Shown piece after piece: positions 185 through 47,065 of a stretch of 64,000 nucleotides of DNA (position 1 is the stretch's first letter; each line of letters begins with the position of its first letter). The notes beneath the pieces were generated by a model. That model worked only from the letters and a program-made list of their open reading frames with translations. It made no database searches and had not been told where the DNA came from. The position numbers and the translations under genes are program-made. The stretch is from Odiellus spinosus (taxonomy: Eukaryota > Arthropoda > Arachnida > Opiliones > Phalangiidae), in assembly GCA_963920705.1 (NCBI GenBank), contig OY987239.1:9577504-9641503 (forward strand), read 5' to 3'.

Positions 185-3100
185 CTAAATGTGGTGATCA
201 CTTAATACGGACCTTTTTCGCCAACCTTGATTCGTTAAACATTCGACGCAAAAGGTTAAAATGCCCAATGAAAGACCGATAATCCAAACACGAAAAAGGT
301 TCGTCAGGTACACTTCGTTGATGGACTTGTAAGATACTGAAGTGGAGCCAGAATTATCCGATTCCAATACGTTTCCACGTCTAAGTCTCATAACTGATCT
401 GTAAAAGTGTTCCGTCTGTCTCGTTTCAGTTATTCTCGTTGCCCTGAAAAATAACAAGTTGGGAAACCAAAATATTACCTCTTCGACAATGTTAACCTAA
501 CCTAACCCTACTTCAAATAATAGATGGACACAATGAAATATTTATTTTAAATGTAAATAAGTGGAATTCGAATTCTAACAATATAAATAAATGCATCGGT
601 ATCATTAGGCTGCACTGCGCAGGATATCCGCTTACGCGGGAAGTGACACACACACAGACACGACCAGTGTAAAACCTCCCCCTGAACCTAAGTTTAGTCG
701 GGGAGGTAAAAAGCTATAATTTACTATTACGTGTTAGTGTACGTCTAAGAGTGTGACTCTTATCTGAGGTAGTTTCTTACAGATAGTCGATGTTCTCCTT
801 GATGTCGCGAGGCAGTCGTTTATTGAATAACATGTGCGTGTAGAACGTTTCGTATTCTCTCTTTCCCACGTAGAGTTTCCGCTTACTTCGTTTCAGCATC
901 TTGAAATAGGTAGGAGTCAGTTTCGAGAAGGTTTCGTGGATTATTGTAGCTTCCCCGCTGACAAATTTTTCACTAATTGTTTTGTCCTCTAACCATGACC
1001 GACTTTCGACGCTTCGGAGCTGCACCAACAAATTGCGGTTCTTGGTGACGAAGTCCTGCAATAGAAATTTAATTGTTTAATTTAGGCTTTCTAAAACCTA
1101 GATTTCAAATTTGAATTTTCTGGCTAACACCTATGTTTTATTTTAAAGGATAGTGCAGGCTGCCACCTTGGGAACCGGTATATGTCTACTCTATGTGTAC
1201 GTTACCTAGACTTCAACGTATAAGAGTAATTCCACAAATTGTAATCAACCCAATTACCCAAATATTTCTTTTTGGCAGCTCCTCCCACAAACGAAGTTTG
1301 AAATTGTTAATAATTATCATTTGCTTTGAAATTAGGCCTACTTAATAGTCCTGGTCGATTTCCAAAACCGGAAGTCTAGAGACCCTGGCGAAAATTTTGG
1401 GGGGAAAACTTTTTGTCACGTGATCGTCCGCCATCTTTTTGTAGTGTGAAAATAGCGACAGACTAACCAACGCCTCCAATATTTTATCATATAGGAAGCG
1501 TTGGACCAATAATATATTCAACACAACAATATCGAACCGTACGCTATACCTCTGGTATAACGCTAGTTTCGAACGGGAGGAGCTTACTAGATTTGACGTT
1601 GTATGCGTTATGATTTTCACCCTATCACAAGCTTTCGAGGTCCGCGAGACCGCGACAGAGAGCTAGCTCTACCGGCAGCGCCTATCCCCGCAGCCTGATA
1701 TCCTCCCCCCCCGCACTTATCGTAGAAAACAGCCAACCGCTTCCTGCGCACGTGACATGACGCGCGGCGTAGACCTCCGTAGGCTCCATCCGCTTGAGAC
1801 TAGCGCGCGGACAAAGGTATAGCTCTTCCATATTCTTGTGTTGAATCTATTCTTGGTTGGACTAACAACTTGAATTTGGTTTGTGGGAAATAAAATTAGA
1901 AATAGTCTGGCAGTCTGTTACTACAAAAAGATGGCGGCGCGGCTATGAGACAAGGGCCCTTTTCCGGCAAATCGACCAGGACTATATTTCGTTTAGTACC
2001 GCTATACTTTAAGCCTTAGTACGGTTACCTCGAGGAATCTCTCTGCCCGAGATCCTTCCTTGTAATAGCAAAGAAGATTTGGTTTGGCCAACAAATCCTC
2101 CAGAGAATCGATGAAGAAATTGTCGTCGACGATTTGTTGACTCGTGAAGTTACCACACCAGTTGAAAATTATAGCCGTTACTCCCAAGAGCCAACAGGCT
2201 CGGACGAGCCTTAATGTCGCTTTCTTCGCGTCCGCTACGGCTGCCAATAGAAAAATTAGAATCACCAAATATTACGGGACAATTAAACTCGAGGGTAGCT
2301 TGTTAATTTTAGTATCTAGGACATAAATTCTAAATTAATTGATATAGAAGTTGTTGATTCATAAAGGAGTTTCAGGAGTATACGATTAAAAATAATTACT
2401 GTCCTGTAAGGGGGCGCGACGCTTTTGAGAAGTCTAGTTTATTATTAGTTGTTAAATTTGCGATACTTAACAGTTGTTTAGAATATCAGCCGTGTGAGTC
2501 CAGAGGGACTCGGCGAACGAAGAAAAACGACTTTCACGACGCATCCTCTTTCTGAAGCCGATAAAAGAAGAAAAGGCGGATATCGCGAGCATCGACAGAG
2601 CCACCAAAACCCAAACCGAGTCACTGAGTCCCTGGATTGACAGCAATTCCGAAGCATCCCTCTGATTAGTTTCAACAGACGAATATATTACGAAGGAAAC
2701 AATAAACGAATACGGAGGTACGTGATGAAGACTCGGCGCATCCTCGTCCACATTATAGAAACGAAGCGTTGAATCGGTTATCTGCCCGCGACGAAAAGGA
2801 ATGTATAAACTTGATTATTTGAGCGAGAGTGGGGCCAGGTTGCGGTAAAAGTTAGATGGAGGTCATAAGTTACTCCAAGTTACTCTCACGTTGGATCCCC
2901 CGTTTAAATATGATTGTTTCATAATTAATCATTATCCTTATAGTCTACTTACGCCGTATTCAACACCCCAGTTGTGTATTTCGTGCCTATCCGCCGATTT
3001 TGCATCGCTGAAGTTTGAGAGACGTTTCCGTAATTCAAAATCGTTCATAGATATGAGTTTGACATTTTTTAAATTTTGGAAAATGAGCCAAGTCCAAAAA

Positions 3101-4743
3101 AATATGCTTTGGCTATGAATGGTGTATGGCCACTTGGTAAAAGCCCTCACAAACCCAAGCGTAAACTGAAAATTTCGCAATCGGATTGGAATACTTGTAA
3201 TTACAATTAGAAGCCGATTAAACCCTCCTTTGATGTCTATTACTCCCGGCCCCCGGGTCTTATCTACCCCTCTCTGTATGGGTTCGTCTCAAGAATCGCG
3301 ATTCGTACGCCTCCTCACGGTAGATATTTTCGGAGCGGGAATTCGTCTAGCAACCTTGGAGTTCGTCAAAAAACCGTCGTCGTTTGTGGAGAGAGAAAAT
3401 TTCCAATTTTCCGTAGACAGGGGGGTATGAAATAGGACCCCTCTGATCTCGTAAAATTGTGATTTTTACCCATACAGAGAGGAGCGCTATATGGGACATT
3501 AGAGTAGTAGACTTCGAAGGAGGGTGTCATCGGCTTCTGTTACAAGTAACACTAAAAAATAGAAATCGCCCGCTGTCCAGTGAACTACCACCTTGGTAGC
3601 TGGGTCTGAATGTCTTTTAAACTTGCCTTTCCCACACTAAAGCGCATTGGTGTGTTTTTATCGATTATTCTACTAGCAAGTTGGAAACCAAAATATTACC
3701 TTTATTATTAAGCGTGATTTCTTAGTCACACACTCGTAATCACGCGGATTTATACCGTATAGGCTTAATGGCTATACGCCTATAATATTTTCAACCTTTT
3801 GCGGGTATTTATTTAATCCAAGCTGTGTATTCATCACGAATAGTTTTCACTTACCCCGTTGCAAATATTGCTGCGGGCACCAATGGACGTAGAATATGTT
3901 TTTGTCTTCCCCTAGAGCCGGTTTTTTTGTTTGTTTGTTGGTAAATACACTGACCATTATTAATTTAATGATATTATTAACAATTACAATCGGATATTAT
4001 CATTTGTAAAAAGATACTTTCCAATTTAGTATATTCATTTCAATTTAAATTAGAATTTTACCCTTTGGTCCAGAAGCCGATGAAACCCTCCTTTGAAGTC
4101 TATTACTCCCTGGTCTTGTCTACCCCTCTCTGTATGGGTTAGTTTCAAAAAGCGCGATAGATATTTTCGGAGCGGGAGTTCGTCGAGCGAATATCTCTAG
4201 CAGCCTTGGAGTTCGTCAAAAAAACGTCGTCGTTTGTGGAGAGAGAGAATTTCCAATTTTCCGTAGACAGGGGGTATGAAGTAGGACCCCTCCGATCTCG
4301 TAAAATTGTGAATTTTACCCATACAGAGAGGAGCGCTATATGGAACATTAGAGTAGTAGACTTCAAAGGAGGGTTTCATCTACTTCTGTTTGGTCCAATT
4401 TTGCCATATTTGGTTCATTTAAATTGTCAGATTAAAATGGAATTTTCCATTTGATAATGTAGTGGAATTTTACAGTGCCAAGTGTCGCGAGTTATGATTA
4501 CTTGGAGGGATTACTTTATTTCAAATCTCAACTCTAAATCTCTTCTGATTTTTCTTACAATTCAGAACGCTTCTCGAAGGGCTCTTATTCGCTTCAGCAC
4601 GTACGATTATTGTTTTAGCTCACCGGATGATTAGCGGTAATTCAAAATCAAGCGGTAACGGCAATGAGAAAATGTTTTCTTACCTCTGGTAGACTGTAAG
4701 TGAAATTATAGGGATTTGCCGAAGTGAATTTTTCGTTTTCCAT
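185..4743 (-). CDS. Divergent ionotropic receptor (IR), array copy 1
   Basis: Predicted ligand-gated cation channel subunit of the insect chemoreceptor IR family. Coding exons on the minus strand: 4684-4743, 2953-3165, 2472-2781, 2029-2240, 781-1055 and 185-443. The phases join as 0, 0, 1, 0, 2, giving 442 residues. Residues 21-146 are S1. TM1 is 147-167 (VWVLVALSMLAISAF), followed by the pore segment FAESLWTHTADI. TM2 is 204-226 (LRLVRACWLLGV), with FNWCGNFTS in place of the iGluR SYTANLAAF motif. S2 contains SGEATIIHE (298-306). TM3 is about 404-426 (LTNLFRVWIIGLSLG). Donors such as GTAAGT at 2952 and polypyrimidine acceptors flank every exon. The protein is short: there is no signal peptide and no amino-terminal domain before the LBD, and a stop lies 15 bases upstream of the ATG in frame. 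Extra 5' exons could exist. The family call is firm; the start exon is less so. Confidence 0.82.
1348..1982. mobile_element. TA-flanked element E, intact, IR unit 1 intron
   Basis: The ends are GTCCTGGTCGATTT and AAATCGACCAGGAC, bordered by TA on both sides as in Tc1/mariner-type insertions. Further in, a second inverted match (CGCCATCTTTTTGTAGT near 1430 and its complement near 1921) extends the terminal repeat. Length is about 635 bp with no transposase. It lies in the TM2-S2 intron; copy 5 lacks it. The minus-strand frame across 1342-1620 is part of this element. Confidence 0.72.
3208..3539. mobile_element. MITE A, unit 1, first intron, proximal copy
   Basis: Inverted ends with consensus CAGAAGCCGATGAAACCC; here the first base is T. 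Flanks are ttacaat and ttacaag. The matching site in copy 5 (near 46300) is empty, with one ttacaag. Minus orientation relative to the copy at 45615. The small frames at 3230-3430 belong to it. Confidence 0.85.
4071..4388. mobile_element. MITE A, unit 1, first intron, distal copy
   Basis: Ends CAGAAGCCGATGAAACCC and CTACTTCTG, flanked by the 7-bp repeat tttggtc on both sides. Overlapping frames on both strands are transposon sequence. Confidence 0.87.
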
Positions 4744-8477: not shown

Positions 8478-11400
8478 CTAAATGTGGTGTTCACTTAATA
8501 CGGACCTTTTTCGCCAACCTTCATTCGTTAAACATTCGACGCAAAAGGTTAAAATGCCCAATGAAAGACCGATAATCCAAACACGAAAAAGGTTCGTCAG
8601 GTACACTTCGTTGATGGACTTGTAAGATACTGAAGTGGAGCCAGAATTATCCGATTCCAATACGTATCCACGTCTAAGTCTCGTAACTGATCTGTAAAAG
8701 TGTTCCGTCTGTCTCGTTTCAGTTATTCTCGTTGCCCTGAAAAATAACAAGTTGGGAAACCAAAAATTACCTCTTCGACAATGTTAACCTAACCTAACCC
8801 TACTTCAAATAATAGATGGACACAATGAAATATTTATTTTAAATGTAAATAAGTGGAATTCGAATTCTAACAATATAAATAAATGCATCGGTATCATTAG
8901 GCTGCACTGCGCAGGATATCCGCTTACGCGGGAAGTGACACACACACAGACACGACCAGTGTAAAACCTCCCCCTGAACTAAAGTTTAGTCGGGGAGGTA
9001 AAAAGCTATAATTTACTATTACGTGTTAGTGTACGTCTAAGAGTGTGACTCTTATCTGAGGTAGTTTCTTACAGATAGTCGATGTTCTCCTTGATGTCGC
9101 GAGGCAGTCGTTTATTGAATAACATGTGCGTGTAGAACGTTTCGTATTCTCTCTTTCCCACGTAGAGTTTCCTCTTACTTCGTTTCAGCATCTTGAAATA
9201 GGTAGGAGTCAGTTTCGAGAAGGTTTCGTGGATTATTGTAGCTTCCCCGCTGACAAATTTTTCACTAATTGTTTTGTCCTCTAACCATGGCCGACTTTCG
9301 ACGCTTCGGAGCTGCACCAACAAATTGCGGCTCTTGGTCACGAAGTCCTGCAATAGAAATTTAATTGTTTAATTAGGCTTTCTAAAACCTAGATTTCAAA
9401 TTTGAATTTTCTGGCTAACACCTATGTTTTATTTTAAAGGATAGTGCAGGCTGCCACCTTGGGAACCGGTATATGTCTACTCTATGTGTACGTTACCTAG
9501 ACTTCAACGTATAAGAGTAATTCCACAAATTGTAATCAAGCCAATTACCCAAATATTTCTTTTTGGCAGCTCCTCCCACAAACGAAGTTTGAAATTGTTA
9601 ATAATTATCATTTGCTTTGAAATTAGGCCTACTTAATAGTCCTGGTCGATTTCCAAAACCGGAAGTCTAGAGACCCTGGCGAAAATTTTGGGGGGAAAAC
9701 TTTTTGTCACGTGATCGTCCGCCATCTTTTTGTAGTGTGAAAATAGCGACAGACTAAAAAACGCCTCCAATATTTTATCATATAGGAAGCGTTGGACCAA
9801 TAATAGATTCAACACAAGAATATCGAACCGAACGCTATACCTCTCGTATAACGCTAGTTTCGAACGGGAGGAGCTTACTAGTTTTGACGTTGTATGCGTT
9901 ATGATTTTCACCCTATCACAAGCTTTCGAGGTCCAGTGGCGCCGCCAGGAATTTTTCTCACGTAGGCACGGCTTTTTTTGGGGGGCCCCAGTGGCCCTGA
10001 CAATAGCTATCGTTTCCTTTGCTATTTCTGATTCTCAAATCTCTCTCTGAAAGTTTTAGTTTTGGTTTTAGCCACTGCCCCGCTAACACTGGCACGACGC
10101 CAGTAATTAAGCTTATATGTCTACAGGTGTGCAACTCTATACTGAATTATACAAAAAAGAGGTTGCTTCGCACCCTTAAAAAAACTCTTTATCTAACTCG
10201 AATCAAACCCGTGAAGGGACAGAAATTATTTGTTAGAGAAAGAGCAATTTCATATCTTTAAAATCTACTAACTATAATTTTAAAGATATGAAATTGCTCT
10301 TTCTCTAACAAATAATTTCTGTCCCTTCACGGGTTTGATTCGAGTTAGATAAAGAGTTTTTTTAAGGGTGCGAAGCAACCTCTTTTTTGTATAATTTCTG
10401 TCCTTTTTTCTCCAAAAATATACACCTTTTCCACATTTCACTATTTTGCTTTATAGGTTTATTGAACTTTAATTCTTACTAATGCTGAATAAAAATTAAA
10501 GCGTTTAATTGAGGCTTCAATCTATTCGTAATTGAGACCCTGGTACAAATCTCGAAAGGCAGAGATTAACTAACCTAACCTTACCTAAGTTGTAAAACAG
10601 GGATGGGCTAGTTCAATTGATTAACTAACCTAAACTAATCTTACCTAAAATACTACAAGAGGAACGGGTTAGCCCGAGTTGTAGGGATTACCTAGTTGGA
10701 GGGATGGGCTATTTCCAGTGTTTAATTAACCTAATTTAACCTTAAAGATTACTTGATGGAATGGGTAACCCGAGGGATTAACTAGTTGGAACGATGGGCT
10801 AATTCGAGGAATTAACTAACCTAACCTAGCCTTACCTAAAATATTACAAATAGCCCGAGCTAAGGATTAACTAGTTGGAAGGATTGGCTAATTAGAGGGA
10901 TTAACTAACCTAACCTCACCTTAAAGATTACCAGATGGACGGGGGAGGTCGAGGGATTAACTAACCTAGCCTTACCTAAAATATTACAAGAGGGACGGGC
11001 TAGACCGAGCTAGAGATTAAATTTATAATATTGAATCGCATCGACAAAAAATGAGCATGGAAAGCGAAACAATTCTTTAAAGCAGCATGAGAACATAATT
11101 CTGGAGGCCAGAAGTATGTGGCCGTTTATTTAACTCGCCGACATCAATTTCCGTTTCGTATATCCTATTTAAAATTCTAAATCTTTATTTTTTATTATAA
11201 TTGAGTTAGACGTGATTTAGATACAGACTTCAATAATTGGTCAACTACTTAATAGCAACGTTATTACGTAGTTGTAATGACGAAGCTATTGGATCTAAAG
11301 CACATCCTAGTCGCTAAACTCAAGTATTTTAAAAAATAAAGTAGAGATTGAAAACGTTAAACTATAAATTTCATGTGTAATCGAGCACTTGGCAGGATAT

Positions 11401-14400
11401 GAAGTCCAACTCGAGTGATATTTAATCCCTAGAACTCTCATAGTGAAATTTTTTTACAGTGACTTACTATATTATATTGGCCACATTTCTAGGTAAGGCG
11501 ATTTACATTCAATCGCTTCGGTTTATTCGAGTACTCTACCCAAAAGATCGTGAGAAATGAGTCTCTTATCACCGAAATATAGGTGAGAAACGATTGCCTA
11601 AACAATCGAAGACGTCACCATTGCACAAACGAGAGGGCTCCCCACAATTTTAAACGCTAACGTAAACCACGCGTTGGTACAGTGCATCTGTGAGTACTGA
11701 ATATGCAAATCTCGTTTATATAGGCCGAGAAGAGATATATTATTAAAGTTAAAAAATCAAATGATAAGAAAATCATTCCAACTTTTTAATTACGGTGAAT
11801 TAAGGTGAATATAATGGGATACTCATGATATGACATAATAGTCAAAATTAGACGGCTGAAGAGGGCTACCCTAGTAAAAGAACCCAATAAATGCAATTTT
11901 CCGTTAACGATAAAAAATGCCATTAAAAAAAACTTATCAACTGTTTAATAAAATCAATTTTTGTTTATCAATTTAAAGCCAATTAATAAAGCTCGGCTAG
12001 TTATATGTTTTACCCTTTTCGTCACCCATACAGGCATCTGTCTCTCTATTAACTCGAATTCGATGGATATTCATTATCATTCTACTGTTTAAGAAATAAA
12101 ATTTTGTTTACCATTTTGAAGCAATTAATAAAGCTCGGCTAAGCTTATGATTTCACCCTTTTGTAACCCATTCAGGCGCCTTACTTTCTATTAACTCGAA
12201 TTCGATGGATATTCCTTATCATTCTACTGTTTAAGAAATAAAATTTTTGATTATTCATTTTGAAGCAATTAGTAAAGCTCGGCTAAGCTTAAGATTTCAC
12301 CCTTTTGTAACCCATTCAGGTACCTTACTTTCTATTACTTCGTATACTTAATCAACATTTCATTATTGAAATCTGTGTTTAACTAGAGATACTCTTGTAC
12401 CTGATCGAAGTCTTATCAAATTTTTTCAAAAGTACCTTTGTCTGTATTAATTCGAATTCAGTGGACGGTGGGAAGAGGGAAACGACGACGACGACGACGA
12501 CGACGCTTTCAGTTATCAATCGCCGCGGGTCCATTGGAAAAGGCATTACGGTTTCTGATGAAATTCGAGTTCAGATAAAGGGATAAACACGAACGTGTTT
12601 ATCCTAATACGCCAGAGGGCCAGAGTCCAGAGAGCTTCGGCTACTAGAGGGTAGTACCTCAGTAAAAAAACGTAAAGGAAACTCGTAGGGGAAGGGGGCG
12701 AATTTTTAAATCTTACATTCGCGCTCGAATACTGCGCAGTTTTAACTTTTTAAGCGCAAAATAAATGCAACCAACAATTTTCTTTCCAAACTTTTCGACA
12801 TTTTCGTTCGGCTTATGAAATCTGCCACTTAACTGGGAATAAATGAGGCCGCTCGGTCTGAAATCAGGGGCCCCCTTTCTAAAAATTGGGGGGCCCTTCC
12901 AAATTTTACACGTAGGCACGACAAATTTACACGTAGGCACGTGCCTACGTGTGCCTACTGCTGGCGGCGCCACTGTCGAGGTCCGCGAGACCCCGACAGA
13001 GAGCTAACTCTACCGGCAGCGCCTATCCCCGCAGCCTGATATCCTCCCCCCCGCACTTATCGTAGAAAACAGCCAACCGCTTCCTGCGCACGTGACATGA
13101 CGCGCGGCGTAGACCTCCGTAGGCTCCATCCGCTTGAGACTAGCGCGCGGACAAAGGTATAGCTCTTCCATATTCTTGTGTTGAATCTATTCTTGGTTGG
13201 ACTAACAACTTGAATTTGGTTTGTGGGAAATAAAATTAGAAATAGTCTGGCAGTCTGTTACTACAAAAAGAAGGCGGCGCGGCTATGAGACAAGGGCCCT
13301 TTTCCGGCAAATCGACCAGGACTATATTTCGTTTAGTACCGCTATACTTTAAGCCTTAGTACGGTTACCTCGAGGAATCTCTCTTCCCGAGAATTATCCC
13401 TGTAATAGCAAAGAAGATTTGGTTTGGCCAATAAATCCTCCAGAGAATCGATGAAGAAATTGTCGTCGACGATTTGTTGACTCGTGAAGTTACCACACCA
13501 GTTGAAAATTATAACCGTTACTCCCAAGAGCCAACAGGCTCGGACTAGCCTTAATGTCGCTTTCTTCGCGTCCGCTACGGCTGCCAATAGAAAAATTAGA
13601 ATCACCAAATATTACGGGACAATTGAACTCGAGGGTAGCTTGTTAATTTTAGTATCTCGGACATAAATTCTAAATTAATTGATATAGAAGTTGTTGATTC
13701 ATAAAGGAGTTTCAGGAGTATACGATTAAAAATAATTTCTGTCCCGTAAGGGGGCGCGACGCTTTTGAGAAGTCTAGTTTATTATTAGTTGTTAAATTTG
13801 CGATACTTAACAGTTGTTTAGAATATCAGCCGTGTGAGTCCAGAGGGACTCGGCGAACGAAGAAAAACGACTTTCACGACGCATCCTCTTTCTGAAGCCG
13901 ATAAAAGAAGAAAAGGCGGATATCACGAGCATCGAAAGAGCCACCAAAACCCAAACCAGGTCACCGAGTCCCTGGATTGACAGTAATTCCGAAGCATCCC
14001 TCTGATTAGTTTCAACAGACGAATATATTACGAAGGAAACAATAAACGAAAACGGAGGTACGTGATGAAGACTCGGCGCATCCTCGTCCACATTATAGAA
14101 ACGAAGCGTTGAATCGGTTATCTGCCCTCGACGAAAAGGAATGTATAAACTTGATTATTTGAGCGAGAGTGGGGCCAGGTTGCGGTAAAAGTTAGATGGA
14201 GGTCATAAGTTACTCCAAGTTACTCTCACGTTGGATCCCCCGTTTAAATATGATTGTTTCATAATTAATCATTATCCTTATAGTCTACTTACGCCGTATT
14301 CAACACCCAAGTTATGTATTTCGTGCCTATCCGCCCGTTTTGCATTGCTGAAGTTTGAGAGACGTTTCCGTAATTCAAAATCGTTCATAGATACGAGTTT

Positions 14401-25600: not shown

Positions 25601-27069
25601 AGATACGAGTTTGACATTTTTTAAATTTTGGAAAATGAGCCAAGTCCAAAAAAATATGCGTTGGCTATGAATGGTGTATGGCCACTTGGTAAAAGCCCTC
25701 ACAAACCCAAGCGTAAACTGAAAATTTTGCAATCGGATTGGAATACTTGTAATTACAATTAGAAGCCGATTAAACCCTCCTTTGATGTCTATTACTCCCG
25801 GCCCCCGGGTCTTATCTACCCCTCTCTGTATGGGTTCGTCTCAAAAATCGCGATTCGTACGCCTCCTAACGGTAGATATTTTCGGAGCGGGAATTCGTCT
25901 AGCAACCTTGGAGTTCGTCAACCAAACGTCGTCGTTTGTGGAGAGAGAGAGAGAATTTCCAATTTTGGGTAGACAGGGGGAAATGAAGTAGGACCCCTCC
26001 GATCTCGTAAAATTGGGAATTTTACCCATACAGAGAGGAGCGCTATATGGAACATTAGAGTAGTAGACTTCAAAGGAGGGTTTCATGGGCTCCCCAAAAA
26101 AACTGTTACACCATGAAGTATGGGTCTTTTAAATAATTAGTTAATTTCATTTATATTTCATCATGGTCAATCATTTTAATATTAAGGACGTAGATTATGT
26201 TTTTGTCTTTCCATATGTCGGGTTTTTTGTTTGTTAGTTTGTAAATACACTGGCCTTTATTAATTTAATGATATTATTAACAAATACAATCAGATATTAT
26301 CATTTATAACAAGATACCAATTTAGTATATTCATTTCAATTTAAATTAGAATTTTACTCTTTGCTCCAATCTTTGCCATATGAAATTTTCCTATTTGGTT
26401 GATTTTTGTCAAACCAGAAGCCGATTAAACCCTCCTTTGAAGTCTATTACTCCCGGGTCTTGTCTACCCCTCTCTGTATGGGTTAGTTTCAAAAAGCGCG
26501 ATTCGTACGCCTCCTAACGGTAGATATTTTCGGAGCGGGAGTTCGTCCAGCGAATATCTCTAGCAGCCTCGGAGTTCGTCAACCAAACGTCGTCGTTTGT
26601 GGAGAGAGAGAATTTCCAATTTTTCGTAGACAGGGGGGTATGAAGTAGGACCCCTCTGATCTCGTAAAATTGTGGATTTTACCCATACAGAGAGGAGCGC
26701 TATATGGAACATTAGAGTATTAGACTTCAAAGGAGGGTTTCATCTACTTCTGGTCAAACTAAAATGGAATTTTCCCTTTGATAATGTAGTGGAATTTTAC
26801 AGTGCCAAGTGTGGCTAGTTTTGGTTACTTAGAGGGATTACTTTAATTCAAATCTCAACTCTAAATCTCTTCTGATTTTTCTTACAATTCAGAATGCTTC
26901 TCGAAGGGCTCTTATTCGCTTCAGCACGTACGATTATTGCTTTAGCTCACCGGATGATTAGCGGTAATTCAAAATCAAGCGGTAACGGCAATCAGAAAAA
27001 TTTTCTTACCTCTGGTAGACTGTAAGTGAAATTATAGGGGTTTGCCAAAGTAAATTTTTCATTTTCCAT
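19666..27069 (-). CDS. Divergent ionotropic receptor (IR), array copy 3
   Basis: Exons: 27010-27069, 25505-25717, 25024-25333, 24581-24792, 20261-20535 and 19666-19924, giving 442 residues in frame. The S1, TM1 and TM2 exons encode the same peptides as copies 2 and 4, and the S2 and C-terminal exons match copy 2. The start exon differs from copy 1 mostly at third positions, with one Ser-to-Leu change, which supports the ATG frame: an alternative frame through this exon gains a TGA in this copy. The TM2-S2 intron carries element E and the hAT. This copy, with copies 2 and 4, may be functionally redundant or young. Confidence 0.82.
21122..24187. mobile_element. Non-autonomous hAT-type element, copy in IR unit 3
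   Basis: Same element at the same site as in unit 2, with the same 8-bp flank tcgaggtc. It therefore spread by duplication of the unit and not by a new insertion. It is 24 bases longer because a short palindromic segment containing AACACGAACGTGTT (about 23772-23820) is duplicated in tandem. Confidence 0.85.
21334..21584. repeat. Long perfect hairpin inside hAT, unit 3
   Basis: Copy of the unit 2 hairpin with both arms conserved. Confidence 0.88.
25760..26086. mobile_element. MITE A, unit 3, proximal copy, right end replaced
   Basis: Duplicate of 14548-14874. Confidence 0.82.
26415..26752. mobile_element. MITE A, unit 3, distal copy
   Basis: Complete, flanked by gtcaaac on both sides. Its insertion site differs from that of the unit 1 distal copy, so these are independent insertions about 250 bp apart in the ancestral unit. 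Confidence 0.85.
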
Positions 27070-30973: not shown

Positions 30974-33900
30974 CTAAATGTGGTGATCACTTAATACGGA
31001 CCTTTTTCGCCAACCTTGATTCGTTAAACATTCGACGCAAAAGGTTAAAATGCCCAATGAAAGACCGATAATCCAAACACGAAAAAGGTTCGTCAGGTAC
31101 ACTTCGTTGATGGACTTGTAAGATACTGTAGTGGAGCCAGAATTATCCGATTCCAATACGTATCCACGTCTAAGTCTCGTAACTGATCTGTAAAAGTGTT
31201 CCGTCTGTCTCGTTTCAGTTATTCTCGTTGCCCTGAAAAATAACAAGTTGGGAAACCAAAATATTACCTCTTCGACAATGTTAACCTAACCTAACCCTAC
31301 TTCAAATAATAGATGGACACAATGAAATATTTATTTTAAATGTAAATAAGTGGAATTCGAATTCTAACAATATAAATAAATGCATCGGTATCATTAGGCT
31401 GCACTGCGCTGGATATCCGCTTACGCGGGAAGTGACACACACACAGACACGACCAGTGTAAAACCTCCCCCTGAACTAAAGTTTAGTCGGGGAGGTAAAA
31501 AGCTATAATTTACTATTACGTGTTAGTGTACGTCTAAGAGTGTGACTCTTATCTGAGGTAGTTTCTTACAGATAGTCGATGTTCTCCTTGATGTCGCGAG
31601 GCAGTCGTTTATTGAATAACATGTGCGTGTAGAACGTTTCGTATTCTCTCTTTCCCACGTAGAGTTTCCGCTTACTTCGTTTCAGCATCTTGAAATAGGT
31701 AGGAGTCAGTTTCGAGAAGGTTTCGTGGATTATTGTAGCTTCCCCGCTGACAAATTTTTCACTAATTGTTTTGTCCTCTAACCATGACCGACTTTCGACG
31801 CTTCGGAGCTGCACCAACAAATTGCGGTTCTTGGTGACGAAGTCCTGCAATAGAAATTTAATTGTTTAATTTAGGCTTTCTAAAACCTAGATTTCAAATT
31901 TGAATTTTCTGGCTAACACCTATGTTTTATTTTAAAGGATAGTGCAGGCTGCCACCTTGGGAACCGGTATATGTCTACTCTATGTGTACGTTACCTAGAC
32001 TTCAACGTATAAGAGTAATTCCACAAATTGTAATCAAGCCAATTACCCAAATATTTCTTTTTGGCAGCTCCTCCCACAAACGAAGTTTGAAATTGTTAAT
32101 AATTATCATTTGCTTTGAAATTAGGCCTACTTAATAGTCCTGGTCGATTTCCAAAACCGGAAGTCTAGAGACCCTGGCGAAAATTTTGGGGGGAAAACTT
32201 TTTGTCACGTGATCGTCCGCCATCTTTTTGTAGTGTGAAAATAGCGACAGACTAAAAAACGCCTCCAATATTTTATCATATAGGAAGCGTTGGACCAATA
32301 ATAGATTCAACACAAGAATATCGAACCGAACGCTATACCTCTCGTATAACGCTAGTTTCGAACGGGAGGAGCTTACTAGTTTTGACGTTGTATGCGTTAT
32401 GATTTTCACCCTATCACAAGCTTTCGAGGTCCAGTGGCGCCGCCAGGAATTTTTCTCACGTAGGCACGGCTTTTTTTGGGGGGCCCCAGTGGCCCTGACA
32501 ATAGCTATCGTTTCCTTTGCTATTTCTGATTCTCAAATCTCTCTCTGAAAGTTTTAGTTTTGGTTTTAGCCACTGCCCCGCTAACACTGGCACGACGCCA
32601 GTAATTAAGCTTATATGTCTACAGGTGTGCAACTCTATACTGAATTATACAAAAAAGAGGTTGCTTCGCACCCTTAAAAAAACTCTTTATCTAACTCGAA
32701 TCAAACCCGTGAAGGGACAGAAATTATTTGTTAGAGAAAGAGCAATTTCATATCTTTAAAATCTACTAACTATAATTTTAAAGATATGAAATTGCTCTTT
32801 CTCTAACAAATAATTTCTGTCCCTTCACGGGTTTGATTCGAGTTAGATAAAGAGTTTTTTTAAGGGTGCGAAGCAACCTCTTTTTTGTATAATTTCTGTC
32901 CTTTTTTCTCCAAAAATATACACCTTTTCCACATTTCACTATTTTGCTTTATAGGTTTATTGAACTTTAATTCTTACTAATGCTGAATAAAAATTAAAGC
33001 GTTTAATTGAGGCTTCAATCTATTCGTAATTGAGACCCTGGTACAAATCTCGAAAGGCAGAGATTAACTAACCTAACCTTACCTAAGTTGTAAAACAGGG
33101 ATGGGCTAGTTCAATTGATTAACTAACCTAAACTAATCTTACCTAAAATACTACAAGAGGAACGGGTTAGCCCGAGTTGTAGGGATTACCTAGTTGGAGG
33201 GATGGGCTATTTCCAGTGTTTAATTAACCTAATTTAACCTTAAAGATTACTTGATGGAATGGGTAACCCGAGGGATTAACTAGTTGGAACGATGGGCTAA
33301 TTCGAGGAATTAACTAACCTAACCTAGCCTTACCTAAAATATTACAAATAGCCCGAGCTAAGGATTAACTAGTTGGAAGGATTGGCTAATTAGAGGGATT
33401 AACTAACCTAACCTCACCTTAAAGATTACCAGATGGACGGGGGAGGTCGAGGGATTAACTAACCTAGCCTTACCTAAAATATTACAAGAGGGACGGGCTA
33501 GACCGAGCTAGAGATTAAATTTATAATATTGAATCGCATCGACAAAAAATGAGCATGGAAAGCGAAACAATTCTTTAAAGCAGCATGAGAACATAATTCT
33601 GGAGGCCAGAAGTATGTGGCCGTTTATTTAACTCGCCGACATCAATTTCCGTTTCGTATATCCTATTTAAAATTCTAAATCTTTATTTTTTATTATAATT
33701 GAGTTAGACGTGATTTAGATACAGACTTCAATAATTGGTCAACTACTTAATAGCAACGTTATTACGTAGTTGTAATGACGAAGCTATTGGATCTAAAGCA
33801 CATCCTAGTCGCTAAACTCAAGTATTTTAAAAAATAAAGTAGAGATTGAAAACGTTAAACTATAAATTTCATGTGTAATCGAGCACTTGGCAGGATATGA

Positions 33901-36900
33901 AGTCCAACTCGAGTGATATTTAATCCCTAGAACTCTCATAGTGAAATGTTTTTACAGTGACTTAATTACTATATTATATTGGCCACATTTCTAGGTAAGG
34001 CGATTTACATTCAATCGCTTCGGTTTATTCGAGTACTCTACCCAAAAGATCGTGAGAAATGAGTCTCTTATCACCGAAATATAGGTGAGAAACGATTGCC
34101 TAAACAATCGAAGACGTCACCATTGCACAAACGAGAGGGCTCCCCACAATTTTAAACGCTAACGTAAACCACGCGTTGGTACAGTGCATCTGTGAGTACT
34201 GAATATGCAAATCTCGTTTATATAGGCCGAGAAGAGATATATTATTAAAGTTAAAAAATCAAATGATAAGAAAATCATTCCAACTTTTTAATTACGGTGA
34301 ATTAAGGTGAATATAATGGGATACTCATGATATGACATAATAGTCAAAATTAGACGGCTGAAGAGGGCTACCCTAGTAAAAGAACCCAATAAATGCAATT
34401 TTCCGTTAACGATAAAAAATGCCATTAAAAAAAACTTATCAACTGTTTAATAAAATCAATTTTTGTTTATCAATTTAAAGCCAATTAATAAAGCTCGGCT
34501 AGTTATATGTTTTACCCTTTTCGTCACCCATACAGGCATCTGTCTCTCTATTAACTCGAATTCGATGGATATTCATTATCATTCTACTGTTTAAGAAATA
34601 AAATTTTGTTTACCATTTTGAAGCAATTAATAAAGCTCGGCTAAGCTTATGATTTCACCCTTTTGTAACCCATTCAGGCGCCTTACTTTCTATTAACTCG
34701 AATTCGATGGATATTCCTTATCATTCTACTGTTTAAGAAATAAAATTTTTGATTATTCATTTTGAAGCAATTAGTAAAGCTCGGCTAAGCTTAAGATTTC
34801 ACCCTTTTGTAACCCATTCAGGTACCTTACTTTCTATTACTTCGTATACTTAATCAACATTTCATTATTGAAATCTGTGTTTAACTAGAGATACTCTTGT
34901 ACCTGATCGAAGTCTTATCAAATTTTTTCAAAAGTACCTTTGTCTGTATTAATTCGAATTCAGTGGACGGTGGGAAGAGGGAAACGACGACGACGACGAC
35001 GACGACGCTTTCAGTTATCAAGCGCCGCGGGTCCATTGGAAAAGGCATTACGGTTTCTGATGAAATTCGAGTTCAGATAAAGGGATAAACACGAACGTGT
35101 TTATCCTAATAAACACGAACGTGTTTATCCTAATACGCCAGAGGGCCAGAGTCCAGAGAGCTTCGGCTACTAGAGGGTAGTACCTCAGTAAAAAAACGTA
35201 AAGGAAACTCGTAGGGGAAGGGGGCGAATTTTTAAATCTTACATTCGCGCTCGAATACTGCGCAGTTTTAACTTTTTAAGCGCAAAATAAATGCAACCAA
35301 CAATTTTCTTTCCAAACTTTTCGACATTTTCGTTCGGCTTATGAAATCTGCCACTTAACTGGGAATAAATGAGGCCGCTCGGTCTGAAATCAGGGGCCCC
35401 CTTTCTAAAAATTGGGGGGCCCTTCCAAATTTTACACGTAGGCACGACAAATTTACACGTAGGCACGTGCCTACGTGTGCCTACTGCTGGCGGCGCCACT
35501 GTCGAGGTCCGCGAGACCCCGACAGAGAGCTAACTCTACCGGCAGCGCCTATCCCCGCAGCCTGATATCCTCCCCCCCGCACTTATCGTAGAAAACAGCC
35601 AACCGCTTCCTGCGCACGTGACATGACGCGCGGCGTAGACCTCCGTAGGCTCCATCCGCTTGAGACTAGCGCGCGGACAAAGGTATAGCTCTTCCATATT
35701 CTTGTGTTGAATCTATTCTTGGTTGGACTAACAACTTGAATTTGGTTTGTGGGAAATAAAATTAGAAATAGTCTGGCAGTCTGTTACTACAAAAAGAAGG
35801 CGGCGCGGCTATGAGACAAGGGCCCTTTTCCGGCAAATCGACCAGGACTATATTTCGTTTAGTACCGCTATACTTTAAGCCTTAGTACGGTTACCTCGAG
35901 GAATCTCTCTTCCCGAGAATTATCCCTGTAATAGCAAAGAAGATTTGGTTTGGCCAATAAATCCTCCAGAGAATCGATGAAGAAATTGTCGTCGACGATT
36001 TGTTGACTCGTGAAGTTACCACACCAGTTGAAAATTATAACCGTTACTCCCAAGAGCCAACAGGCTCGGACTAGCCTTAATGTCGCTTTCTTCGCGTCCG
36101 CTACGGCTGCCAATAGAAAAATTAGAATCACCAAATATTACGGGACAATTGAACTCGAGGGTAGCTTGTTAATTTTAGTATCTCGGACATAAATTCTAAA
36201 TTAATTGATATAGAAGTTGTTGATTCATAAAGGAGTTTCAGGAGTATACGATTAAAAATAATTTCTGTCCCGTAAGGGGGCGCGACGCTTTTGAGAAGTC
36301 TAGTTTATTATTAGTTGTTAAATTTGCGATACTTAACAGTTGTTTAGAATATCAGCCGTGTGAGTCCAGAGGGACTCGGCGAACGAAGAAAAACGACTTT
36401 CACGACGCATCCTCTTTCTGAAGCCGATAAAAGAAGAAAAGGCGGATATCACGAGCATCGAAAGAGCCACCAAAACCCAAACCAGGTCACCGAGTCCCTG
36501 GATTGACAGTAATTCCGAAGCATCCCTCTGATTAGTTTCAACAGACGAATATATTACGAAGGAAACAATAAACGAAAACGGAGGTACGTGATGAAGACTC
36601 GGCGCATCCTCGTCCACATTATAGAAACGAAGCGTTGAATCGGTTATCTGCCCTCGACGAAAAGGAATGTATAAACTTGATTATTTGAGCGAGAGTGGGG
36701 CCAGGTTGCGGTAAAAGTTAGATGGAGGTCATAAGTTACTCCAAGTTACTCTCACGTTGGATCCCCCGTTTAAATATGATTGTTTCATAATTAATCATTA
36801 TCCTTATAGTCTACTTACGCCGTATTCAACACCCAAGTTATGTATTTCGTGCCTATCCGCCCGTTTTGCATTGCTGAAGTTTGAGAGACGTTTCCGTAAT

Positions 36901-38383
36901 TCAAAATCGTTCATAGATACGAGTTTGACATTTTTTAAATTTTGGAAAATGAGCCAAGTCCAAAAAAATATGCGTTGGCTATGAATGGTGTATGGCCACT
37001 TGGTAAAAGCCCTCACAAACCCAAGCGTAAACTGAAAATTTTGCAATCGGATTGGAATACTTGTAATTACAATTAGAAGCCGATTAAACCCTCCTTTGAT
37101 GTCTATTACTCCCGGCCCCCGGGTCTTATCTACCCCTCTCTGTATGGGTTCGTCTCAAAAATCGCGATTCGTACGCCTCCTAACGGTAGATATTTTCGGA
37201 GCGGGAATTCGTCTAGCAACCTTGGAGTTCGTCAACCAAACGTCGTCGTTTGTGGAGAGAGAGAGAGAATTTCCAATTTTGGGTAGACAGGGGGAAATGA
37301 AGTAGGACCCCTCCGATCTCGTAAAATTGGGAATTTTACCCATACAGAGAGGAGCGCTATATGGAACATTAGAGTAGTAGACTTCAAAGGAGGGTTTCAT
37401 GGGCTCCCCAAAAAAACTGTTACACCATGAAGTATGGGTCTTTTAAATAATTAGTTAATTTCATTTATATTTCATCATGGTCAATCATTTTAATATTAAG
37501 GACGTAGATTATGTTTTTGTCTTTCCATATGTCGGGTTTTTTGTTTGTTAGTTTGTAAATACACTGGCCTTTATTAATTTAATGATATTATTAACAAATA
37601 CAATCAGATATTATCATTTATAACAAGATACCAATTTAGTATATTCATTTCAATTTAAATTAGAATTTTACTCTTTGCTCCAATCTTTGCCATATGAAAT
37701 TTTCCTATTTGGTTGATTTTTGTCAAACCAGAAGCCGATTAAACCCTCCTTTGAAGTCTATTACTCCCGGGTCTTGTCTACCCCTCTCTGTATGGGTTAG
37801 TTTCAAAAAGCGCGATTCGTACGCCTCCTAACGGTAGATATTTTCGGAGCGGGAGTTCGTCCAGCGAATATCTCTAGCAGCCTCGGAGTTCGTCAACCAA
37901 ACGTCGTCGTTTGTGGAGAGAGAGAATTTCCAATTTTTCGTAGACAGGGGGGTATGAAGTAGGACCCCTCTGATCTCGTAAAATTGTGGATTTTACCCAT
38001 ACAGAGAGGAGCGCTATATGGAACATTAGAGTATTAGACTTCAAAGGAGGGTTTCATCTACTTCTGGTCAAACTAAAATGGAATTTTCCCTTTGATAATG
38101 TAGTGGAATTTTACAGTGCCAAGTGTGGCTAGTTTTGGTTACTTAGAGGGATTACTTTAATTCAAATCTCAACTCTAAATCTCTTCTGATTTTTCTTACA
38201 ATTCAGAATGCTTCTCGAAGGGCTCTTATTCGCTTCAGCACGTACGATTATTGCTTTAGCTCACCGGATGATTAGCGGTAATTCAAAATCAAGCGGTAAC
38301 GGCAATCAGAAAAATTTTCTTACCTCTGGTAGACTGTAAGTGAAATTATAGGGGTTTGCCAAAGTAAATTTTTCATTTTCCAT
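30974..38383 (-). CDS. Divergent ionotropic receptor (IR), array copy 4
   Basis: Exons: 38324-38383, 36819-37031, 36338-36647, 35895-36106, 31570-31844 and 30974-31232, giving 442 residues in frame. It is a mosaic. The start, S1, TM1 and TM2 exons and most introns match copy 3. The S2 exon encodes KNRNLL and SRSWLED like copy 1, and the downstream flank carries MITE F, as at the window start. The switch lies between about 31860 and 32035. The C-terminal exon has a private Ser-to-Thr change (GSTTVSYKS). The open frame suggests a functional gene. Confidence 0.82.
32432..35501. mobile_element. Non-autonomous hAT-type element, copy in IR unit 4
   Basis: Same insertion site and structure as in unit 3, including the tandem AACACGAACGTGTT segment (about 35086-35134). 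It differs by a 4-base insertion near 33963. It carries no transposase. Confidence 0.85.
32644..32894. repeat. Long perfect hairpin inside hAT, unit 4
   Basis: Copy of the unit 2 hairpin with both arms conserved. Confidence 0.88.
37074..37400. mobile_element. MITE A, unit 4, proximal copy, right end replaced
   Basis: Duplicate of 14548-14874. Confidence 0.82.
37729..38066. mobile_element. MITE A, unit 4, distal copy
   Basis: Duplicate of 26415-26752, with gtcaaac flanks. Confidence 0.85.
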
Positions 38384-40951: not shown

Positions 40952-41010
40952 GAGAAGCCAGTAATTAAGTTCCCAAGTGCTTATTTAAAATTATAATTTG
41001 ACAATAACGG

Positions 41011-42182: not shown

Positions 42183-42843
42183 TTTTGATGAAATCAGCAG
42201 CGGGATGAAGATTTTGCAAACAGGTTTAGGTTTTACATCTTTTAAAGAATGGAATGATAGGAAAATTAGTCTCATTTCGCTCTTCTTAAAAAGGTACGTT
42301 TATGCTAAATGTGGTGATCACTTAATACGGACCTTTTTCGCCAACCTTGATTCGTGAAACATTCGACGCAAAAGGTTAAAATGCCCAATGAAAGACCGAT
42401 AATCCAAACACGAAAAAGGTTCGTCAGGTACACTTCGTTGATGGACTTGTAAGATACTGTAGTGGAGCCAGAATTATCCGATTCCAATACGTTTCCACGT
42501 CTATGTCTCGTAACTGATCTGTAAAAGTGTTCCATCTGTCTCGTTTCAGTTATTCTCGATGCCCTGAAGAATAACAATTTGGAAACCAAAATATTACCAC
42601 TCCGACAACGTTAACCTAACCTAACCATACTTCAAATTAAAGATGGACACAATGAAATATTTATTTTAAATAAGTGGAATACGAATTCTAGCAATATAAG
42701 CAAATACATCGGTATCATTAGGCTGCACTGCGCAGGATATCCGCTTACACAGGAAGTGACACACGCACAGACGCGACCAGTGTAAAACCTCCCCCTGAAC
42801 TAAAGTTCAGTCGGGGAGGTAAAAAGCTATAATTTACTATTAT

Positions 42844-43214: not shown

Positions 43215-44762
43215 CTATTATGTGTTAGTGTACGTCTAAGAGTGTGACTCTTATCTGAGGTAGTTTCTTACAGATAGTCGATGTTCTCCTTGATGTCGCT
43301 AGGCAGTCGTTTATTGAAGAACATGTGCGTGTAGAACGTTTCGTATTCTCTCTTTCCCACGTACAGTTTCCTCTTACTTCGTTTCAGCATCTTGAAATAG
43401 GTAGGAGTCAGTTTCGAGAAGGTTTCGTGGATTATTGTAGCTTCCCCGCTGACGAATTTTTCACTAATTGTTTTGTCCTCTAACCATGAAATACTTCTGA
43501 CACTTCGGACCTGCTTCTTCAAATTGCGGTGCTTTGACTCGTAGTCCTACAATAGAAATTTAATTGTTTAATTTAGGCTTTCGAAAACGTACATGTCAAT
43601 TTGAATTTTTTCGCTAACACCTATGTTTTATTTTAAAGGATATTAGAGGCTGCCACCTTCTCCGGATATTTCACAGTAATTATGATCATAAGTCTATTAT
43701 TATCTCTAAGTACCCAAATAAAACCTCTCGATTGGGCATCTATGTCTACAAAACGTTTTGTCAGGGCTAGCTCGCGATTTTGAAAATATTCTCGAACCCA
43801 GCGCTGCTGGTTGAGTATAAAGGAAAATAAACCAGTTTATATTAACGGTCCGTGGTTACCTCAAGGAATGTCTCTGCCCGAGATCCTTCCTTGAAATAGC
43901 AAAGAAGATTTGGTTTGGCCAACAAATCCTCCAGAGAATCGATGAAGAAATTGTCGTCGACGATTAGTTGACTCGTGAAATTACCACACCAGTTGAAAAT
44001 TATAACCGTTACTCCCAAGAGCCAACAGGCTCGAACGAGCCTTAATGTCGCTTTCTTCGCATCCGCTACGGCTGCCAATAGAAAAATTAGAATCACCAAA
44101 TATTACGGGACAATTGAACTCGAGGGTAGCTTGTTAAATTTAGTATCCCGGACAGAAATTCTAAATTAATTTATATAGAAGTTTTTGATTCATAAAGGAG
44201 TCTCTGAAGTATACGATTGAAAATAATTTCTGTCCCGTAAGGGGGCGCGACGCTTTTGAGAAGTCTAGTTTATTATTAGTTGTTAAATTTGCGATACTTA
44301 ACAGTTGTTTAGAATATCAGCCGTGTGAGTCCAGAGGGACTCGGCGAACGAAGAAAAACGACTTTCACGACGCATCATCTTTCTGAAGCCGATAAAAGAA
44401 GAAAAGGCGGATATCGCGAGCATCGACAGAGCCACCAAAACCCAAACCGAGTCACCGAGTCCCTGGATTGACAATACTTCCGAAGCATCCCTCTGATTAG
44501 TTTCAACAGACGAAAATATTACGTAGGAAACAAGAAAAGAAAACGGAGATACGTAATAAAGACTCGTTGCTTTTTCTTGCATAAAATAGAAACGAAGCGT
44601 ACAATCGGTTATCTGCAAGCGACCAACGAAAGGAATGTATCAAGTCGATTACTCTGAGCGAGAATGGGGTTAGGTTGCGGTATAAGTTAGGAAAATTCAG
44701 GCTTCAAAAATAATATCAAGAATTGGTTTATTTCCATCTTATGAGAGAGTATGCTTGGTTTA

Positions 44763-45262: not shown

Positions 45263-45327
45263 CATACCAGTATGGTTATCTTGATGCTATTGGTTGACGC
45301 TTTGTTACTTTACACCCTTAATTAGGT

Positions 45328-45966: not shown

Positions 45967-46471
45967 ATTAGATGGAGGTCATAAGTTACTCTCTCACGTT
46001 GGATCCCTCCTTTAAATATGATTGTTTCATAATTAAGCATTATCATTATCGTCTACTTACGCCGTGTATAACACCCAAGTTGTGTATATCGTTCCTATCC
46101 GCCCATTTTGTATCGTTAATGGTTGAAAGTCGTTTCCGTAAATCAAAACGTTCATAGATATGAGTTTGACATTTTTTAAATTTCGGAAAATGAGCCAAGT
46201 CCAATAATATGTGTTTTGACTACGAAAGGTGTATGGCCAATTGGTAAAAAAATCCACAAAATTTTTCACTAACTGAAAGTTTCGCCATCGGATTGGAATA
46301 TTTGTAATTACAAGTAACACTAAAAAATAGAAAGCGCCCGCTGTCCAGTGAACTGCCACCTTGGTACGCTCCATTTTGCCATTTAAAGCAAAATCGAGTA
46401 TTTTTATTATATTACCTTTATTATAGTGGGATTTTACAATGCCAAGTGTGGCTAGTTCTGATTACTTGGAG

Positions 46472-46808
46472 CAGAAGTAAATGAAACCCTCCTTTGAAGT
46501 CTACTACTCTAATGTTCGATATAGCGCTCCTCTCTGTATGGGTAAAATTCCCAATTTTACGAGATCGAAGGGGTCCTACTTCATACCCCTTGTCTACGGA
46601 AATTTCGAAATTCTCTCTCTCCACAAACGACGACGTTTTTTTGACGAACTCCAAGGCTGCTAGAGATATTCGCTCGACGAACTCCCGCTCAGAAAATATC
46701 TACCGTTAGGAGGCGTACGAATTGCGCTTTTTGAAACTAACCCATACAGAGAGGGGTAGACAAGACCCGGGAGTAATAGACTTTAAAGGAGGGTTTCATC
46801 GGCTTCTG
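46472..46808. mobile_element. MITE A, copy 5 first intron
   Basis: Complete, with cttggag on both sides and slightly diverged left end CAGAAGTAAATGAAACCC. Confidence 0.87.
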
Positions 46809-47065
46809 CTTGGAGGGACAACTTCGATTCAAATCTATACTTTAAATCTCTTCTGATTTATGCTTCTTGAAGGTCTCTTATTTTTGGTAGAATCGGTAAC
46901 TCATAATTCTTCGCTTGACCACGTACGATTATTGCTTTAGCTCACCGGATGATTAGCGGTAATTCAAAATCAAGCGGTAACGGCAATGAGCAAATGTTTT
47001 CTTACCTCTGGTAGACTGTAAGTGAAATTATAGGGGTTTGCCGAAGTAAAATTTTTGTTTTCCAT

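Follow-up and report, generated by a model that had tools for sequence, protein, structure and literature searches.

A probable young cluster of divergent ionotropic receptor genes in Odiellus spinosus

We found that a six-exon gene occurs five times on the minus strand between positions 185 and 47065 of the window, the whole stretch of 64,000 nucleotides of Odiellus spinosus DNA analysed here, and these copies are probably divergent ionotropic receptor (IR) genes in a young cluster. IRs are a variant family of the ionotropic glutamate receptors and act in protostome chemosensation (taste and smell). An earlier note on this DNA had claimed such an array, and exon-by-exon reconstruction bore it out. 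Joining at splice sites gave the exon order A, B', 2, 3, 5 and 6 with intron phases 0, 0, 1, 0 and 2, and the minus-strand stop codons at 185, 8478, 19666, 30974 and 42305 place the five copies head-to-tail. Because nine single ORFs gave no useful Pfam match, the exons had to be joined. The spliced product is exactly 442 residues plus a stop in copies 1, 2, 3 and 4 and is thus taken to be the model of the earlier note. The exons are as follows.

4684..4743, minus strand: copy 1 exon A (first exon, candidate)
2953..3165, minus strand: copy 1 exon B' (S1)
2472..2781, minus strand: copy 1 exon 2 (last part of S1, then TM1 and the pore helix)
2029..2240, minus strand: copy 1 exon 3 (TM2, NWCGNFTS, start of S2)
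781..1055, minus strand: copy 1 exon 5 (S2)
185..443, minus strand: copy 1 exon 6 (TM3, stop)
15868..15927, minus strand: copy 2 exon A (candidate)
14293..14505, minus strand: copy 2 exon B'
13812..14121, minus strand: copy 2 exon 2
13369..13580, minus strand: copy 2 exon 3
9073..9347, minus strand: copy 2 exon 5
8478..8736, minus strand: copy 2 exon 6
27010..27069, minus strand: copy 3 exon A (candidate)
25505..25717, minus strand: copy 3 exon B'
25024..25333, minus strand: copy 3 exon 2
24581..24792, minus strand: copy 3 exon 3
20261..20535, minus strand: copy 3 exon 5
19666..19924, minus strand: copy 3 exon 6
38324..38383, minus strand: copy 4 exon A (candidate)
36819..37031, minus strand: copy 4 exon B'
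36338..36647, minus strand: copy 4 exon 2
35895..36106, minus strand: copy 4 exon 3
31570..31844, minus strand: copy 4 exon 5
30974..31232, minus strand: copy 4 exon 6
47006..47065, minus strand: copy 5 exon A (candidate)
46061..46272, minus strand: copy 5 exon B' (lacks one base, which breaks its frame)
44303..44612, minus strand: copy 5 exon 2
43860..44071, minus strand: copy 5 exon 3
43272..43546, minus strand: copy 5 exon 5
42305..42563, minus strand: copy 5 exon 6
43714..43803, minus strand: copy 5 optional extra exon in the exon 3-5 interval (the open stretch of copies 1-4 in this interval is another one)

Identity as an ionotropic receptor is supported by a Lig_chan match of the channel exons, by the alignment of the gate and by three TM peaks. 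The earlier note had proposed a search of the spliced model with Pfam PF00060 (Lig_chan; cut-off 30.8 bits). In copies 2 and 5 the channel exons passed this cut-off (32.4 and 32.5 bits; 32.6 and 33.0 bits with the optional exon added), but the 442-residue models, scanned for copies 2 and 1, fell just under it (29.9 and 28.0 bits). One reversed and one shuffled control gave no PF00060 match. PF10613, a profile of the ligand-binding lobe (S1) named alongside PF00060 in PMC2924276, gave no match up to E 10, in a search that discards most hits weaker than E 0.1 and might therefore have lost a weak one. Against solved structures (PDB), a single sequence found nothing up to E 10. With a four-sequence profile the top matches were NMDA receptors, at a weak best E of 0.031, and 56 of the 59 rows listed up to E 10 were ionotropic glutamate receptors (GluN2A/GluN2B), the GluN2A/GluN2B rows being near-duplicates of one another. 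In the profile alignment the segment from TM1 to the gate is in register with GluN2A. The degenerate SYTANLAAF segment pointed out earlier was recovered in this weak match (E 0.031), NWCGNFTS lying opposite SYTANLAA of GluN2A with the second N as the sole identity. Three KD19 hydropathy peaks, at least 1.3 in copies 1 and 2, stand at 147, 202 and 409 of 442, where an IR has its TMs, and the order S1, TM1, pore, TM2, S2, TM3 was found, with S1 and S2 placed by position only.

It is extremely unlikely that the array encodes no receptor, that is, that it consists of chance frames in repeat-rich DNA or encodes some other three-helix membrane protein. The full models do score just below the Pfam cut-off, and copy 2 has a weak ATP synthase A match of about 15 bits (cut-off 33.9); however, one exon set with one shared open frame recurs across several copies, Lig_chan is matched and the NMDA receptor alignment is in register. 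In addition, a relative of the array adjoins it at 48487-50864, with intron phases after TM1 and TM2 equal to those of the array genes. This sixth IR-like gene, absent from the earlier note, is far more divergent; its best Pfam match, PF00060, is far under the cut-off (14.8 bits, E 0.025), and BLASTP aligns it to the array with E 9e-05 across 68 residues.

50723..50864, minus strand: sixth gene, TM1 exon
50388..50569, minus strand: sixth gene, TM2 exon
49626..49656, minus strand: sixth gene, short S2 exon (tentative)
49179..49362, minus strand: sixth gene, S2 exon (donor chosen among alternatives)
48487..48778, minus strand: sixth gene, TM3 exon and stop

The receptor had been described as short, which is doubtful: the model has no signal peptide, its first exon lacks support and 146 residues precede TM1. 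Since tuning IRs carry about 200 residues ahead of S1 alone, according to PMC7882480, the shortness probably reflects an incomplete 5' end of the model. A signal peptide and an N-terminal region of about 200 residues are expected of an intact tuning IR and do not define the family. Hydropathy revealed no N-terminal hydrophobic peak or signal peptide in the 442-residue model, and an upstream 5' exon with a signal peptide, sought by eye, was not found. Exon A (20 codons) is unproven because its conservation does not exceed that of the flanking intron (between copies 5 and 1, 4/60 differences in the exon vs 5/99 in the flank). Two candidates for the 5' end were rejected. A start at 46374 in copy 5, with a hydrophobic leader before exon B', is not intact in copies 1-4: copy 1 has an inserted element and no ATG at this site, and copies 2-4 showed no such leader. 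At the acceptor of exon B' the divergence from copy 5 rises abruptly, from 3/40 to 19/60 in copy 1 and from 4/40 to 20/60 in copy 2, so the stretch ahead of exon B' behaves like intron. Each of the ORFs 7917-8327, 19105-19515, 30066-30488 and 41397-41819 matches its own opposite strand, and a stop in the first two falls where the other two read through; they are therefore taken for an inverted-repeat element. As for an extra exon between exons 3 and 5, copy 5 has a phase-fitting open stretch and copies 1-4 have a different one. Including the stretch adds only 0.2 (copy 2) and 0.5 (copy 5) Pfam bits, and the exon 3-5 intervals of copies 5 and 1 show no likeness (Smith-Waterman 21, reached by 79/500 shuffles).

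The earlier note stated that the exons recur five times with matching phases. The exons are indeed present in all five copies, but copy 5 is not intact: its exon B' lacks one base near 46149, after which the model hits stops, a break that had been missed. The 442-codon frame is open in the other four copies, and exons 2, 3, 5 and 6 are open in all five although they carry 61 substitutions between copies 5 and 1 and 71 between copies 5 and 2. In neutral simulations of 5,000 trials each, these four exons stayed open in 0.22% (copy 1) and 0.08% (copy 2) of trials. This result leans on the indel rate, which was taken from the introns (3 gaps per 53 substitutions), because the exons stayed open in 8% and 6% of trials without indels. 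The open frames in the copies are more than chance.

These frames bear on a pseudogene reading of the whole array, in which an IR ancestor lost its 5' end and its remnant was amplified inside an 11-kb repeat unit. We regard this as unlikely. In its favour, besides the frame break in copy 5, the model lacks a signal peptide, exon A is conserved no better than its flank and the dN/dS of exons 2, 3, 5 and 6 is 0.71-0.85, which indicates weak constraint. No AATAAA was found past the stop codons, over 600 bases for each of copies 2-5 and over 184 bases for copy 1; there is one ATTAAA in copy 2 and one in copy 3. Taken jointly, exons 3 and 6 are not less different than introns between copies 5 and 2 (23/471 vs 47/788, p 0.45), but they are between copies 5 and 1 (14/471 vs 53/790, p 0.004). 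Moreover, neutral drift with intron-like indels would rarely have kept the four exons open in five copies and the whole model open in four.

The near-identity of copies 2-4 claimed by the earlier note was confirmed, as their 442-residue products differ at 1-6 positions (1 between copies 2 and 3, 6 between 2 and 4, 5 between 3 and 4). The product of copy 1 differs from these at 18-21 of 442 residues. Two 11.2-kb stretches are 99.6% identical across an 11,216-base alignment, introns included, and the identity of the long matches ranges over 99.0-99.6%. The introns are repeat-filled, as had been noted: interspersed repeats are present, and a BLAST comparison of one 332-base element with the window gave 17 matches, counting its own. 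Rfam (at gathering scores) and ARAGORN found nothing in the window. Two elements in copy 1 are relevant to the history of the array.

3208..3539, minus strand: 332-base inverted-repeat element upstream of exon B', copy 1
1348..1982, minus strand: copy 1, exon 3-5 interval, 635-base element with terminal inverted repeats

Both ends of the 635-base element are also present in copies 2-4, about 3.7 kb apart. For the 332-base element, copies 2-4 carry an identical right-hand junction and copy 5 has the empty site. Since this insertion is common to copies 1-4 and missing from copy 5, copy 5 is the outgroup. The near-identity of copies 2-4 together with the common insertion supports a recent tandem expansion.

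Copies 1-4 are a recombinant mosaic in which sequence has been exchanged, an aspect absent from the earlier note. Copies 1 and 2 group against 3 and 4 at 86 sites of a 5' block, and copies 1 and 4 group against 2 and 3 at 13 sites, 11 of which lie in two 3' blocks. From the inserted element to exon 3, copy 1 is set apart at 47 of 47 variable sites, and copies 2-4 show no two-state difference across 1,517 bases. It is quite improbable that copies 2-4 are partly an assembly artefact, namely alternative haplotypes or mis-joined repeats set in tandem. Long stretches 99.0-99.6% identical are within a possible allelic range, and a single residue distinguishes the product of copy 2 from that of copy 3; however, the site groupings conflict along the unit, which is not simply explained by a smaller array present as two haplotypes.

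Copy 5 differs from copies 1-4 unevenly, by 18-29% in the ligand-binding stretches and by 2-7% in the pore exons, a pattern that uneven gene conversion and diversifying selection could produce, singly or jointly. Selection that diversifies ligand specificity seems unlikely as the sole cause. It would fit exon B', which differs from copy 5 at 38/210 sites in copy 1 and 41/210 in copy 2, against 53/790 and 47/788 in introns (p 2.4e-6 and 2.3e-8), and it would fit a pN of 0.22 in the patches, whose limits in exons 2 and 5 were set after the data were seen, against 0.06-0.07 in introns, with an ML omega of 1.5-1.7. However, the departure of this omega from 1 is not significant (p 0.13-0.25), and divergence is also raised at synonymous sites (0.18-0.19; p 0.0007-0.004 against introns) and in the intron ends before exons 2 and 5 (15/79 and 9/60, copy 5 vs 1). 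Modular concerted evolution may be proposed tentatively, and we consider it rather unlikely: gene conversion would keep the channel core alike (the rest of exon 2, exon 3, the rest of exon 5 and exon 6), and both ligand-binding lobes would escape and diverge several-fold more. If so, the array would place different sensors on a common channel, and it would be a compact test case for the gain of new ligands.

For the preferred reading, a young IR cluster, the following picture may be drawn. Matching exons in five tandem copies on one strand encode a channel core like that of iGluRs, with TM1, a pore helix, TM2 and its degenerate gate motif, and TM3. Copies 1-4 may act as tuning subunits of sensory neurons, where they would assemble with co-receptors into cation channels and bind the ligand through S1 and S2. 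The gustatory lineage presumed in the earlier note is putative. Copies 2-4, 1-6 of 442 residues apart, would add dosage and not new specificity. The missing 5' exon(s) would encode the signal peptide and N-terminal region. Exon-by-exon reading recovers a receptor gene despite introns filled with mobile elements, and within 47 kb one can trace how receptors of the chemosensory type duplicated, exchanged sequence and decayed. As a discovery this is modest, being ordinary recent family growth: young IR expansions with pseudogenes are already well documented.

The known systems nearest to this array are the following. In Drosophila, tandem arrays such as the IR94 and IR52 clades resemble the present one in that related divergent IRs are clustered and have grown by duplication, according to PMC2924276. 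The same paper reports weaker constraint on divergent than on antennal IRs, some pseudogenes and a median dN/dS of 0.149 for divergent IRs; in contrast, copies 2-4 here are almost identical, and 0.71-0.85 is far above that median. The papers on Blattella germanica (PMC6175461) and Campodea augens (PMC6938034) describe very recent lineage-specific IR expansions, as here, and many pseudogenes, mostly with a single lesion like copy 5. The expanded IRs in those papers are mostly described as intronless in the coding region, whereas our model has five introns that contain mobile elements. In Drosophila, gene conversion between chemosensory paralogues (PMC4122928) has likewise given parts of IR paralogues different histories, with a possible effect on gene trees in two IR groups and a negligible one on turnover estimates; unlike in that study, the mosaic here is visible within one array. 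Finally, the TM1-pore-gate region of the NMDA receptors GluN2A/GluN2B aligns with the array model, SYTANLAA opposite NWCGNFTS, although the model differs from them in having no amino-terminal domain and a degenerate gate motif, and the match reaches E 0.03 at best.

The array and the neighbouring IR-like (ionotropic receptor-like) gene both lie on the minus strand. Gene reconstruction was based on splice signals and reading frames, and the copies were numbered along the window, copy 1 being leftmost. When the six exons A, B', 2, 3, 5 and 6 were joined, copies 1, 2, 3 and 4 each gave exactly 442 residues and a stop. Because of this exact length, the reconstruction was taken to be the 442-residue model of the earlier note. 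The earlier note had also counted five copies of the gene; the six exons were indeed found five times, but the frame of copy 5 is broken, since one base is missing from its exon B' and the spliced product hits stops. Exon number 4 was reserved for an optional exon, present in copy 5 and not common to copies 1-4.

Last-exon stop codons of copies 1-5: 185, 8478, 19666, 30974, 42305, minus strand
Exon lengths in bases: A 60, B' 213 (212 in copy 5), 2 310, 3 212, 5 275, 6 259
43714-43803, minus strand, optional exon, copy 5 only

Pfam, profile alignment and hydropathy, taken together, support an IR channel core in the array gene. Scans with Pfam Lig_chan (PF00060; cut-off 30.8 bits) covered copies 1, 2 and 5. 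The channel exons of copies 2 and 5 passed (32.4 and 32.5 bits; adding the optional exon raised these to 32.6 and 33.0), whereas the 442-residue models of copies 2 and 1 fell just below the cut-off (29.9 and 28.0 bits); neither control, one reversed and one shuffled sequence, gave a match. A single-sequence search of solved structures returned no match up to E 10. With a profile built from four sequences (copies 1, 5 and 2 and the neighbouring gene), ionotropic glutamate receptors made up 56 of the 59 rows up to E 10, nearly all of them GluN2A or GluN2B and thus near-duplicates of one another. The best alignment (E 0.031) covers TM1, pore and gate, and pairs NWCGNFTS with SYTANLAA. Copies 1 and 2 have three hydropathy peaks, at residues 147, 202 and 409, and no N-terminal peak. 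The ligand-binding lobes S1 and S2 were assigned by position alone.

A sixth, highly divergent IR-like gene, absent from the earlier note, adjoins the array.

48487-50864, minus strand, sixth gene, exons for TM1, TM2 and TM3

The gene model covers the TM1 exon onward. The TM1-TM2 segment matches the array by BLASTP (E 9e-05, 28% over 68 residues), and Lig_chan is its top Pfam match, at 14.8 bits (E 0.025), far below the cut-off. Intron phases equal those of the array, being 1 after TM1 and 0 after TM2; the phase before TM3 is likewise 2, the donor of the preceding exon having been chosen among alternatives to fit. The S2 part as drawn is tentative.

In tuning IRs, about 200 residues precede S1, according to an excerpt of PMC7882480. 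The array model has 146 residues in total ahead of TM1, and conservation of its exon A does not exceed that of the flank (4/60 against 5/99 differences). We therefore think that the "short" receptor described earlier is an incomplete model. A shared block precedes all five copies, copy 5 having 161 bases of it, and the sixth gene; it has no further match in the window at E 1e-6.

56720-57075, minus strand, upstream block of the sixth gene (356 bases)
40045-40401, 28730-29068, 17492-17831, 6304-6643, 47313-47473, same block in the array

The array copies of this block are 89-94% identical to that of the sixth gene, though the proteins are only distantly related. The block may contain a promoter, a 5' exon or a mobile element.

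Two elements with inverted repeats lie within the array.

3208-3539, minus strand, 332-base inverted-repeat element upstream of exon B' in copy 1, also in copies 2-4
1348-1982, 635-base element of copy 1, located between exons 3 and 5 and bearing terminal inverted repeats
35849/32150, 24535/20840, 13323/9652, ends of the exon 3-5 element in copies 2-4 (about 3.7 kb apart)

The right-hand junction of the 332-base element is identical in copies 1-4. TTGTAA stands at both flanks in copy 1, and the left flank in copies 2-4 is a different sequence. Since copies 1-4 hold the element and copy 5 has an empty site, copy 5 was the first to branch off, and copies 1-4 originated afterwards. Site groupings, counted in aligned blocks of copies 1-4, conflict with one another. 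In the 5' block 86 sites pair 1+2 against 3+4, and 63, 4, 13 and 21 sites isolate copies 1, 2, 3 and 4, respectively. From the element to exon 3, copy 1 is the odd one out at 47/47 variable sites. Of the 13 sites pairing 1+4 against 2+3, the 5' block has 2 and the exon 5-6 block has 6, alongside 12 sites that isolate copy 1 and 2 that isolate copy 4; all 5 sites of the 3' flank make up the rest. These conflicts indicate exchange among copies 1-4, by unequal crossing-over or conversion.

The 332-base element is abundant, with 17 BLAST matches in the window including itself, some partial. An 18-base minisatellite (61212-62770, about 87 copies) is open in several frames on both strands. The exon 3-5 interval of copy 5 (43660-43853) is unalignable with that of copy 1 (1169-2022), with both sides more than 90% identical; it has been replaced in one lineage.

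Divergence of copy 5 is uneven. Exon B' differs from copy 1 at 38/210 sites against 53/790 in introns (p 2.4e-6), and from copy 2 at 41/210 against 47/788 (p 2.3e-8). Pooled, exons 3 and 6 differ at 14/471 from copy 1 (p 0.004 versus introns) and at 23/471 from copy 2 (p 0.45). In 60-base window scans, differences cluster at the start of exon 2 (p 1e-4 for copy 1, 2.5e-4 for copy 2) and of exon 5 (p 5e-5 for either), and no clustering was found in exons 3 and 6 (p >= 0.12). Divergence reaches 21-29% in codons 1-25 of exon 2 and 1-21 of exon 5, patches whose boundaries were fixed post hoc on data already inspected, and is 2-7% in the remainder of these exons and in exons 3 and 6. Relative to copy 1, the intron ends ahead of exons 2 and 5 are also raised (15/79 and 9/60), and the 40 bases ahead of exon B' are not (3/40). 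B' and the patches together diverge by 0.22 at nonsynonymous and by 0.18-0.19 at synonymous sites, and the maximum-likelihood omega of 1.5-1.7 does not differ from 1. This is probably an older paralogue pair that was unevenly homogenised, least of all in the exons of the binding lobes; selection for differing lobes may have contributed.

Exons 2, 3, 5 and 6 have an open frame in all five copies. In simulations of neutral drift from copy 1 (5,000 trials each), set to as many substitutions as were observed and to the 3:53 gap:substitution ratio of introns, these exons stayed open in 0.22% of trials with 61 substitutions and 0.08% with 71. The strength of this result depends on the indel rate, because 8% and 6%, respectively, were free of stops. 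Comparing copy 5 with copies 1, 2 and 4 gave dN/dS values of 0.77, 0.85 and 0.71 for these exons, and constraint is therefore weak. Copies 1-4 are possibly functional, and copy 5 is interpreted as a young pseudogene, unless the missing base is a sequencing error.

This locus is not named in the titles and opening lines of abstracts that a text search of the literature retrieved. Divergent tandem arrays of IRs, relaxed constraint, gene conversion and pseudogenes have all been described already, as excerpts of earlier studies state (PMC2924276, PMC4122928, PMC6175461, PMC6938034).
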